DNA of 64,000 bases from Betaproteobacteria bacterium (lineage in GTDB: Bacteria; Pseudomonadota; Gammaproteobacteria; Burkholderiales; SG8-41): NCBI GenBank assembly GCA_947486575.1, contig CANKUB010000005.1, positions 1-64,000 of the forward strand, written 5' to 3'. Position numbers and translations under genes: made by a program. How positions within the stretch are numbered: the first letter of the stretch is position 1; every line of letters begins with the position of its first letter. Below are positions 12,396 to 16,727 of this stretch, one piece after another. A model generated the notes under the pieces. That model was given only the letters and a program-made list of their open reading frames with translations, was not told the origin of the DNA and did not search any database.

Positions 12396-13928
12396 TTACG
12401 TAAACTCGATCAGCGGCTTGCCAGTCATTTCACTGGGTTGCGGCAGGCCCATCATTTTGAGCAATGTTGGCGCCACGTCTTGCAGCGCACCGCCGCTGGC
12501 TTTGGCTTTGCGGCCTATGTATAACAGCGGTACCAGATTCAGCGTGTGCGCAGTATGTGCTTGATGCGTTACCGTATCCAGCATCGTCTCGGCGTTGCCG
12601 TGATCAGCGGTGATCAGCACTTCGCCGTCGATGGCCTGCATGGCTTCCACCGCGCGACCGATGCACACGTCAAGTGTTTCAATGGCGAGCGTGGCCGCCG
12701 CCAGATCACCGGTGTGGCCCACCATATCGCCGTTGGCATAGTTGCAAACTATCGCTTCGTACTGACGGCTTTGAATGGCGGCGACCAGTTTGTCCGTCAC
12801 TTCACGCGCGCTCATCTCCGGCTGCAAATCGTAGGTCGCAACTTTGGGCGACGGCACCATCACGCGGTCTTCACCGGCGTAGGGCGTTTCAACGCCGCCA
12901 TTGAAAAAGTAGGTGACGTGCGCGTATTTTTCAGTTTCGGCTATGCGCAATTGTTTCAGGCCGCGCGATGCGAGATATTCACCAAAGCCGTTGCTGATGT
13001 TTTGCGGTGGATACGCCGCAGGAATATGCGCGAAATCTTCGCCGTAGGTGGTGAGCGTACAAAAGTAACCCAGCCTGGGCGCGTGTTCGCGCGGGAAGGC
13101 GTTGAATTTTGCATCGGTGAGTGCGTTAGTCATTTGCCGCGCACGATCCGCGCGGAAGTTCATGAACACCACCGCGTCACCGTCATTCATGCGCACCGGC
13201 TTGCTGCCGGGCGGCACGATGGCGGTGGCTTTCACGAATTCATCGGTTTCGTTACGCAAGTCGGCGAGCGCGTAGCCGTCCGTCGCTGACGCTGCCCAGA
13301 AGTCGGATTTACCCTGGGTGATGACGTCGTACGCGGGTTGCACGCGCTCCCAGCGCTTATCGCGATCCATGGCGAAGTAGCGGCCACAGATGGAAGCAAT
13401 GCGTCCACTGCTGATGGCTTCGAACTTTTTTTGTAAGGCAACCAGCGACGGTTCGGCACTTTTGGGCGGCGTGTCGCGGCCATCGAGAAAGGCGTGCACG
13501 TAAATATTTTTTACGCCTGCCTTCGCGGCCATATCCACCAGCTCGTGTATTTGCGATTCGTGGCTATGCACGCCGCCTGGCGACAGCAGGCCAAGAATAT
13601 GCAGGGCATTGTGTTTGCCGACTTCAATCGCTTTCAGTAACGCGGGGTTTTTGCGAAACTCGCCGGTTTCAATCGCATGCTCGATCTTGGTGTAATCCTG
13701 ATACACCACGCGGCCCGCGCCGATATTCATGTGGCCGACTTCGGAGTTACCCATTTGTCCGGTGGGCAGGCCGACCATTTTTTCAGAGGCGTCGATCAGG
13801 CTGTGGGCGTATTTGTTCCACAAAAAGTTCCAGTGCGGCTTGCGCGCCTGGCAAATGGCGTTGTTGTCGCATTCTTCGCGGTGGCCGAAGCCGTCGAGGA
13901 TGAGCAGAAGAACTGGCGTTATGTGCAT
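12396..13928 (-). CDS. gpmI: 2,3-bisphosphoglycerate-independent phosphoglycerate mutase
   Basis: Interconverts 3- and 2-phosphoglycerate in glycolysis using two Mn ions and a phospho-Ser. The product is 510 residues, the usual length, when started at ATG 13928; the frame is open further but would cross the divergent promoter. The metal site LLILDGFGHRE lies at the N-terminus, the catalytic Ser in PTGQMGNSEVGHMN, and later metal ligands in LITADHGNAE. Its stop lies five bases before the envC start, so gpmI-envC-ctpA form one minus-strand unit. Confidence 0.95.
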   Translation of the reverse strand: MHITPVLLLILDGFGHREECDNNAICQARKPHWNFLWNKYAHSLIDASEKMVGLPTGQMGNSEVGHMNIGAGRVVYQDYTKIEHAIETGEFRKNPALLKAIEVGKHNALHILGLLSPGGVHSHESQIHELVDMAAKAGVKNIYVHAFLDGRDTPPKSAEPSLVALQKKFEAISSGRIASICGRYFAMDRDKRWERVQPAYDVITQGKSDFWAASATDGYALADLRNETDEFVKATAIVPPGSKPVRMNDGDAVVFMNFRADRARQMTNALTDAKFNAFPREHAPRLGYFCTLTTYGEDFAHIPAAYPPQNISNGFGEYLASRGLKQLRIAETEKYAHVTYFFNGGVETPYAGEDRVMVPSPKVATYDLQPEMSAREVTDKLVAAIQSRQYEAIVCNYANGDMVGHTGDLAAATLAIETLDVCIGRAVEAMQAIDGEVLITADHGNAETMLDTVTHQAHTAHTLNLVPLLYIGRKAKASGGALQDVAPTLLKMMGLPQPSEMTGKPLIEFT

Positions 13929-13994: not shown

Positions 13995-14438
13995 TTGGAG
14001 CAGTTTTTCGCCACATTTTTTACCTATGTCAAACAAAGTCCGCTGAACCTGGTGTTGTTCGGCTTGGCGGTTACGTCCGGCGGCATGCTGTTGTTTCCGC
14101 TGCTGACACGCGGCATGCGCCCCGGTGCTGAGGTGGGGCCGTCTGAAGCGGTAATGTTGATCAATCGCAAAGACGCGGTAGTAATTGACGTGCGTGACGA
14201 AGGCGAATTCAAGACCGGGCACATCAACAACGCGCGTCACATGCCGGAAAAACAAATGGCTGATCGCATGAAAGAGATTGAAAAATTCAAAACCAAGCCG
14301 ATCATCATCAGTTGCGCCAGCGGGCGGCGTTCGGCGTCGGTGGTGGATACGCTAAAGAAGCAGGGTTTTACCGAGGTGGTAGCGCTGGCGGGTGGCATCG
14401 GTGCCTGGCAGCAAGCCGGTATGCCGTTGGAAAAATGA
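13995..14438 (+). CDS. Membrane-anchored rhodanese-like sulfurtransferase
   Basis: A 147-residue single-domain rhodanese behind an N-terminal membrane helix (about residues 14-36). The active-site Cys lies in SCASGRRS, the standard CxxGxR persulfide loop, and the first motif is VVIDVRDEGEFKTGHI. It probably moves sulfane sulfur at the inner membrane; its exact partner is unknown. The start is TTG 13995, preceded by CAGGAG at six bases; an ATG at 13990 is in the wrong frame. It begins the conserved string rhodanese-grxC-secB, and it is tempting to link it to sulfur oxidation, though the string also occurs in non-oxidisers. Confidence 0.88.
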   Translation: MEQFFATFFTYVKQSPLNLVLFGLAVTSGGMLLFPLLTRGMRPGAEVGPSEAVMLINRKDAVVIDVRDEGEFKTGHINNARHMPEKQMADRMKEIEKFKTKPIIISCASGRRSASVVDTLKKQGFTEVVALAGGIGAWQQAGMPLEK

Positions 14439-14475: not shown

Positions 14476-14733
14476 ATGGCAAAAATATTGATGTACAGCA
14501 CCGCAGTTTGACCGTACTGCGTATCCGCGGAGCGGCTACTGGCAAACAAGGGCGTGAAAGACATCGAAAAAGTATATATCGATAAAGATCCCGCACGTCG
14601 CACAGAAATGATGGAAAAAACCGGGCGGCGCACCGTGCCGCAAATCTACATCGGCGACACCCACGTGGGCGGCTACGACGACCTTTCCGCGCTCGATCGC
14701 GCGGGCGGGCTTGACCCGTTGTTGGCGACATAA
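14476..14733 (+). CDS. grxC: Glutaredoxin with in-frame TGA at the active-site Cys (candidate selenoprotein)
   Basis: An 85-codon GrxC-like thiol oxidoreductase. The reading frame is intact from ATG 14476 to TAA 14731-14733 except for TGA at 14509-14511. The translation around it is MYSTAV-stop-PYC, so the TGA stands exactly at the first, nucleophilic Cys of CPYC. Downstream family motifs are all kept: TGRRTVPQIYIG with the cis-Pro, and HVGGYDDLSALDR. A hairpin resembling a bacterial SECIS follows at once. I infer read-through with selenocysteine (UPYC). The alternative is a recent nonsense mutation or a sequencing error; only Cys-type codons and a few others are one base from TGA, so position alone is not proof. 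Gene order with secB is normal. Confidence 0.8.
14518..14544 (+). promoter_or_regulatory. SECIS-like hairpin downstream of the in-frame TGA
   Basis: Predicted stem: TGC/GCA, a two-base bulge, GTA/TAC, an unpaired T opposite C (14524/14536), then CCGC/GCGG around a GGA loop (14529-14531). The unpaired U lies 13 bases and the loop GG 18-19 bases after the TGA. This is close to the layout of the E. coli fdhF SECIS (three pairs, bulged U, three pairs, GG-containing loop) as I know it. The loop has GGA instead of GGU. Confidence 0.55.
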
Positions 14734-14758: not shown

Positions 14759-15262
14759 ATGAGCGAACAAGCCCCCGCGCCGCAGGCGCCCGCATCACCG
14801 CAGGATATGACGCAGCCCATCTTCAGCATCGAAAAAATCTATCTGAAAGACATGTCGCTGGAAGCGCCCGGCACGCCAAAGATTTTTATGCAGAACGAAG
14901 CGCCGCAAGTGGATGTCAACGTCCACACCGGCGCCACGGTGATCGAAGCGGGCGCGCTGTACGAAGTGGTGCTCACTGTTACTGTCACCGCCAAACTGCC
15001 GGATCGCACGATTTTCCTGGTTGAAGTGGCGCAGGCGGGCCTGTTTCACGTGCGCAATCTGCCGCCGCAGGACCTGGATGCGGTGCTGGGCATTTTGTGC
15101 CCGACCAATTTGCTGCCGTATGCGCGCGAAGCGGTATCGAGCATCATCGCAAAGGCGGGCTTTCCGCCGGTGGTGCTGCATCACATGGATTTCAATCAGG
15201 TCTATGCACAGGCCCAGCAACAGCGCGAAGCCCAGCAGCCCACGCCCTCACAGGTAAACTGA
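14759..15262 (+). CDS. secB: Protein-export chaperone SecB
   Basis: Cytoplasmic tetrameric chaperone that keeps preproteins unfolded and hands them to SecA. The 167-residue product has the conserved core FSIEKIYLKDMSLEAPG and the VAQAGLF...LGILCPTNLLPYARE region that forms the peptide groove. The N-terminus is extended by an Ala/Pro-rich tail and the C-terminus by a Gln-rich tail. It follows the glutaredoxin gene by 25 bases, the usual grxC-secB-gpsA arrangement. Confidence 0.96.
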   Translation: MSEQAPAPQAPASPQDMTQPIFSIEKIYLKDMSLEAPGTPKIFMQNEAPQVDVNVHTGATVIEAGALYEVVLTVTVTAKLPDRTIFLVEVAQAGLFHVRNLPPQDLDAVLGILCPTNLLPYAREAVSSIIAKAGFPPVVLHHMDFNQVYAQAQQQREAQQPTPSQVN

Positions 15263-15725: not shown

Positions 15726-16727
15726 ATGAATATTGCCGTTCTGGGCGCTGGCGCGTGGGGTACCGCGATAGCGATACATCTGGCTACGCGGGTTGGAACG
15801 CACGGCGTAACCCACAACGTAATGCTGTGGGCGCGCGACGCGGCACAGGCAGCGGCGATGCAGGCCAGCCGCTGCAACAGCCGCTATTTACCCGACGTTG
15901 TATTGCCGCCAGCCGTCACCGTCAGTGCGGATTTCAACGCAGCGATTCGTGATGCGCATTTATGCCTGGTAGCTGTTACGACGGCAGGCTTGCGCGAAAC
16001 GCTGGTGCGAATGAAATCCGTGCAATCGAGAGCGCCCGTGGTGTGGCTGTGTAAAGGTTTTGAGCGCGAACACGCACTGCTGCCGCATCAAGTGTGCGCC
16101 GCTGAATTGCCGGGGGCCACCTGCGGCGTACTATCCGGCCCCAGCTTCGCGCAGGAAGTGGCGCGTGGGCAACCCACCGCGCTCACACTCGCTTCAGCCG
16201 ATGCCGCATTCGCCAGCGCCACTGCGCGTGAGCTGCACGGCGGCTCGCTACGGGTGTATTCCAGCGGCGATGTGGTTGGCGTTGAAGTCGCGGGCGCGGT
16301 CAAAAATGTCATGGCAATCGCCACTGGCATCTGCGACGGACTTAAGCTGGGACTTAACGCGCGTGCCGCGTTGATGACACGCGGACTTGCTGAAATTAAC
16401 CGGCTTGGCGTCGCACTCGGCGGGCGCGCAGAAACATTCATGGGACTGGCAGGCGTGGGCGATTTAATACTCACCTGCACCGGCGATTTGTCGCGCAACC
16501 GGCGGGTGGGCCTGATGCTGGCAGACGGCAAGGCGCTGGATGAAATTCTCACGGCACTCGGCCATGTCGCTGAAGGCGTTTACAGCGCGCGCGAAGTGGC
16601 GCGCATCGCCAAAACGCGTGGCATCGACATGCCGATTACCGATGCCGTGTGTCGTGTGCTCGACGCACCATACAGTGCCGCGCAGATGGCGCGTGAACTG
16701 CTCGGACGAGACCCGAAATCGGAATAA
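15726..16727 (+). CDS. gpsA: Glycerol-3-phosphate dehydrogenase [NAD(P)+]
   Basis: Reduces dihydroxyacetone phosphate to sn-glycerol-3-phosphate for phospholipid synthesis. The 333-residue product has the N-terminal NAD-binding [12 protein letters not shown], the [11 protein letters not shown]-like segment ([14 protein letters not shown]) and the catalytic Lys in [17 protein letters not shown]. It is the last gene of the secB-SH3-gpsA group before the thioesterase gene. Cytoplasmic, essential for membrane synthesis in most bacteria. Confidence 0.96.

Follow-up and report, generated by a model that had tools for sequence, protein, structure and literature searches.

The stretch of DNA analysed here, referred to as the window, comprises 64,000 nucleotides of contig CANKUB010000005.1 from a betaproteobacterial genome assembly (GCA_947486575.1). 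Its forward strand contains, at positions 14476..14733, the gene grxC, which is predicted to encode a selenocysteine (Sec)-containing glutaredoxin 3 with the active site UPYC and a length of 85 residues if UGA is read as Sec, an assignment based on profile matches, an alignment with E. coli Grx3 and the existence of 13 further TGA-containing orthologues. Translation of this region (MAKILMYSTAV*PYCVSAERLL...TVPQIYIGDTHVGGYDDLSALDRAGGLDPLLAT*, with asterisks for stops) bears out the coordinates and reading frame given in a preliminary description of the locus: the frame ends at an ordinary TAA and contains a single internal stop, the TGA at positions 14509..14511 (+). The read-through product scores above the cut-offs of the NCBIfam glutaredoxin 3 model TIGR02181 (111.7 bits, cut-off 90) and the Pfam glutaredoxin model PF00462 (70.7 bits, cut-off 22.9) and below that of a second glutaredoxin 3 model, NF007923 (98, cut-off 129). 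Apart from the UPYC motif, whose first Cys is replaced by the predicted Sec, it shows the motifs TVPQ and GGYDD. The frame is thus family-like around one in-frame TGA, as had been proposed. It is residue 12 that serves as the nucleophile in glutaredoxins, attacking mixed disulfides with glutathione. E. coli Grx3 (1fov) aligns along the length of the gene product (E 1.8e-23) and places the TGA at the first, nucleophilic Cys of CPYC, in line with the initial claim; together with the codon comparison with homologues, this position identifies the TGA as the predicted Sec codon for residue 12. Translation initiated downstream of the TGA would yield a protein without the active site, so read-through is likely to be required for GrxC function.

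The gene is embedded in a conserved neighbourhood. It is preceded by a rhodanese-domain gene (13995..14438, +; Pfam PF00581), whose TTG start was inferred from an upstream GGAG sequence, and followed by secB (14759..15262, +; Pfam PF02556), with homologues of both genes flanking grxC in all 30 loci compared. The neighbourhood further includes a gene that, from family knowledge, we take to be gpsA-like (15726..16727, +; homologue in 29 of the 30 loci) and a divergently transcribed gene, presumably gpmI-like on the same grounds (12396..13928, -; homologue in 21 of the 30 loci, among them every one of the 14 TGA loci). Given that the rhodanese-grxC-secB arrangement is common to all 30 loci, the Cys and Sec forms of grxC can be regarded as orthologous. 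A genome-wide change of the genetic code, turning TGA into a sense codon, would explain one in-frame TGA within a conserved gene, but both the rhodanese gene and secB end in an ordinary TGA stop, and the same codon terminates 21 of the 66 ORFs in the window (picked by a greedy rule). Moreover, inspection by eye revealed no other read-through frame resembling a family member within the window. The ordinary use of TGA as the stop of neighbouring genes indicates that the code is unchanged, leaving a negligible chance for such a global reassignment.

A read-through search for grxC in 60 related genomes identified 14 genomes in which the gene contains exactly one TGA and 44 further genomes whose best grxC match contains none. 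The carriers comprise 13 of the 14 species of the genus (the window's own and 12 of the 13 others) and one member of another genus of the family (G018). At the predicted Sec position, the codon is TGA in these 14 clade genes and TGC or TGT in all 87 Cys homologues examined. The alignment of close relatives suggested in the preliminary description thus shows the TGA to be kept at exactly the same codon; it represents the sole internal stop in all 14 genes, with none of the scattered other stops that had been named as potential evidence against a Sec enzyme. Other query matches in the TGA-containing genomes were only about 27-33% identical, and the read-through search revealed no second GrxC orthologue in them. 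A survey with the pattern UP[YF]C..AE..L, using the reversed pattern as a control, yielded matches in 14 of 74 genomes of the family (reversed control: 0 in the same 74). Among 399 genomes of the order, there were four matches, every one in the window's genus, and among 399 genomes of the phylum the only real match was the window itself. Two further pattern matches in the phylum set (G543 and G802) were rejected as Sec glutaredoxins, with translations that are not glutaredoxin and genomes that lack tRNA-Sec. Several public MAG records of this group (L077, L080, L082, L085) are titled Bordetella parapertussis, labels that look wrong, and three of these records carry the TGA-containing grxC of the uncultured clade.

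The Cys codons TGC and TGT are one base from TGA, and the genomes concerned are mostly uncultured assemblies, so that the possibility had to be considered that the catalytic Cys codon was lost through a nonsense mutation, pseudogene formation or a sequencing error. Against this explanation, the same single TGA is found in 14 species genomes with a protein divergence of up to about 13%. Its recurrence in separate assemblies renders a read error very unlikely, and its presence in 14 genomes, together with the reversed control of 0 in 74, excludes chance or base-call error as its source. In addition, strong purifying selection acts on the protein downstream of the TGA, with a dN/dS of 0.089 across the 14 genes and no further stop, which suggests that it is made and matters. 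The TGA conservation and this low ratio answer the caution, raised at the outset, that a chance nonsense mutation might be involved. With the Sec machinery of the window's genome (see below) as a further argument against it, we regard a defective or misread gene as extremely improbable.

The genome containing the window (5.35 Mb, 98% complete) possesses all four genes whose search the preliminary description had recommended, including selB and selC, whose absence would have counted against its reading. It encodes a canonical tRNA-Sec with a UCA anticodon (77.7 bits), an intact selB gene nearby (455 bits), an intact selA gene directly upstream of selB (579 bits) and a selD gene (426 bits) that itself contains a single in-frame TGA within the motif HGGG-TGA-GCK. 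tRNA-Sec was detected in all 14 genomes with a TGA-containing grxC and selB in 13 of them; the apparent lack of selB in the remaining genome (G013) was dismissed, as the gene is present but interrupted by a run of Ns. Among the 60 relatives, tRNA-Sec accompanies the TGA gene in 14/14 cases and occurs in 29/46 genomes without it (Fisher p 0.006, a value that ignores relatedness). An unusual tRNA could also read UGA as Cys or another residue instead of Sec. A few bacteria have been described that insert Cys by means of unusual tRNAs with a UCA anticodon, and such insertion, given that the residue replaced is a Cys, would retain an ordinary enzyme. However, the UCA tRNA found here is the canonical tRNA-Sec, located beside intact selA and selB genes, selD is present and carries a TGA of its own, and the other examined matches to the tRNA-Sec model in this genome are tRNA-Ser and tRNA-Leu species with ordinary anticodons. 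On the tRNAs examined, decoding by a recoded tRNA is therefore very unlikely.

The sel loci show several additional features. A thioredoxin-reductase-like FAD protein of 303 aa with the motif CADC is encoded between selB and the tRNA-Sec gene (L046:6861-7769; G000:C47). Its TIGR01292 score of 230 bits falls short of the 343-bit cut-off, and it has homologues adjoining selB in every genome of the family whose selB locus was examined; speculatively, SelD might receive reduced selenium from this protein. The selA-selB-selC group is flanked by two paralogous genes (L046:8331-9722 and, on the minus strand, 1451-2860; G000:C47), both of which contain the sequence GA-TGA-G(S/A)CTPAVLRA near their listed start and appear to encode selenoproteins of the UGSC type (UGSC in one, UGAC in the other), their match to PF24696 being weak. 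Finally, the TGA-containing selD (HGGG-UGA-GCK; L171, G000:C248) adjoins a rhodanese-like gene that, named by eye only, appears selU-like (2-selenouridine tRNA synthase).

Downstream of the UGA, the transcript may form a bacterial SECIS hairpin (14518..14544, +), predicted in an identical register across the 14 TGA genes. In the conserved-register fold, a lower stem within this interval (+), a UGC/GCA helix, lies below a 2-nt bulge, followed by an upper stem (GUA-U-CCGC/GCGG-C-UAC; 14521-14539, +) and a GGA loop (14529-14531, +) that starts 17 nt after the UGA. The GGA loop, the CCGC/GCGG stem that carries it and the 17-nt spacing are found in 14/14 TGA genes, the first two loop positions being G throughout, and loop, stem and spacing fit the limits of the bacterial SECIS model (PMC13188914). 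The upper stem has either 8 bp or 4+3 bp flanking a mismatch; its fourth pair is U.C or A.C in most genes, four have A-U there, and G018 has G-C, with a U.C mismatch in the window's copy. Energetically, the window's hairpin (-7.4 kcal/mol for the upper stem, -9.2 with the lower stem) is close to the limit set for a bacterial SECIS element (a minimum free energy of -7.5 kcal/mol or lower), and the five full-stem copies reach -11.5 to -18.9 kcal/mol. Folded on its own, the window's sequence gives another hairpin as its minimum-energy structure, and the z-scores of that fold are ordinary. As this single-sequence fold does not stand out, our argument for the hairpin is based on conservation rather than energy. 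In the given register, 94.7% of the pair cells are formed, compared with 24 to 54% (at most 53.8%) in slid registers, and a hairpin in this register with a G in its loop is present in 4 of 87 Cys genes. Covariation is limited to one pair, and the relaxed bSECIS rule is satisfied after 22.8% of the codons in neighbouring ORFs; the hairpin alone is thus unspecific and constitutes weak evidence for a SECIS element. More telling than the hairpin rule is the suppression of synonymous changes over codons 13-23, where silent differences within the TGA group drop to 0.167, compared with 0.349 elsewhere (permutation p 0.004). No such dip was observed in two Cys groups, the Burkholderia relatives and the Polynucleobacter relatives (p 0.33 and 0.51).

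Judging from sequence, the product of grxC is very probably a glutaredoxin 3 in selenoprotein form, and the machinery genes, the conservation of the TGA and the purifying selection support the candidate UPYC enzyme that had been put forward initially. When the ribosome reaches the UGA at positions 14509-14511, SelB carrying Sec-tRNA(Sec) would bind the hairpin just downstream, with SelA producing Sec on tRNA-Sec from selenophosphate provided by SelD. Sec would then be inserted as residue 12 to generate the UPYC active site. Its selenol, being more acidic and nucleophilic than a thiol, is expected to attack glutathionylated or disulfide substrates, after which the resolving Cys15 and glutathione would reset the enzyme; Sec would presumably speed up GrxC. 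Failure to insert Sec would yield only an 11-residue peptide, so that GrxC activity should depend on the selenium supply.

A tree built from four proteins of the neighbourhood unites G009 with the Sec genomes in one clade (100/100), with G018 branching first, and the grxC gene tree, calculated without the predicted Sec codon itself, recovers the same set of genomes (99/99). As all surrounding lineages have Cys, the direction of change is most simply from Cys to Sec. These sequence relationships are best explained if the clade's single GrxC, originally a Cys enzyme, gave way to a Sec-GrxC derived from it: in the clade's common ancestor, a change from TGY to TGA would have converted Cys-GrxC into the Sec form, which is now the only GrxC orthologue. 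G009, a congener with a long branch (L031, L062), has a Cys codon (TGT) in grxC and a complete Sec machinery, including selA, selB, tRNA-Sec and a TGA-containing selD; its use of Cys in spite of these genes is a point against the Sec reading. It may represent either a Sec-to-Cys reversal or an early branch that diverged before the gain; a topology constrained to a single clade of all Sec genes gave a p-AU of 0.136 and was not rejected. We give roughly even chances to the broader scenario in which the clade's only housekeeping GrxC has become an obligate selenoenzyme, rendering a core redox function selenium-dependent, and G009 has reverted to Cys, so that one well-sampled family would show both a gain and a reversal.

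Ordinary gene callers would terminate grxC at its TGA or place the start beyond the active site, and the annotations of these genomes therefore probably lack a core redox enzyme or contain it in truncated form. The clade provides a clean natural experiment on the replacement of Cys by Sec, with close Cys- and Sec-containing relatives that have the same gene in the same neighbourhood, and it illustrates the formation of a putative SECIS element inside a conserved coding stretch as well as a possible reversal. Our results further suggest that some aquatic bacteria, as judged by sample names, may depend on selenium for a GrxC-type glutaredoxin.

Sec glutaredoxins as such are already known. UxxC forms have been reported in 10 Sargasso Sea sequences (PMC1088965), in the GOS data (PMC2398784) and in a few cultured bacteria, including Geobacter (PMC1794560). 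The initial statement that they are known from clostridia and metagenomes was thus correct as far as it went but omitted Geobacter. The enzymes of Clostridium oremlandii, Geobacter, Alkaliphilus, Moorella and the Sargasso Sea/GOS samples share the PF00462 domain with the product of the window's grxC. Like the latter, known Sec glutaredoxins have a UxxC motif in which Sec replaces the first active-site Cys and the second Cys is kept, with a bacterial SECIS element, predicted in the present case, just downstream (PMC1088965, PMC1794560, PMC13188914). As judged by their descriptions, they differ in their hosts, which are clostridia, deltaproteobacteria and unassigned sea reads rather than a betaproteobacterial clade, and in that the gene described here is a housekeeping grxC in a rhodanese-grxC-secB context and the only GrxC orthologue of its clade. 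We found no report of a Sec glutaredoxin in Burkholderiales in the literature searched, whose coverage is incomplete. Cys-type GrxC proteins, exemplified by the E. coli enzyme (1fov/3grx), match along the full length and have the TVPQ and GG-DD motifs in common with the window's protein, and the Cys-type grxC genes of relatives in the order occupy the same neighbourhood. In contrast to these genes, the window's grxC has a predicted Sec codon in place of that for the nucleophilic Cys, followed by a SECIS-like hairpin and a region of synonymous suppression. In 2006, the Betaproteobacteria were known to contain a single selenoprotein family, FdhA (PMC1794560). The Sec users known at that time had selA-selB-selC-type machinery, as does the window's genome, whereas the apparent Sec proteins of the present genome are GrxC, SelD and two of the UGSC type. 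What is new, then, is the lineage, the gene context and the well-resolved Cys-to-Sec conversion of a housekeeping gene.
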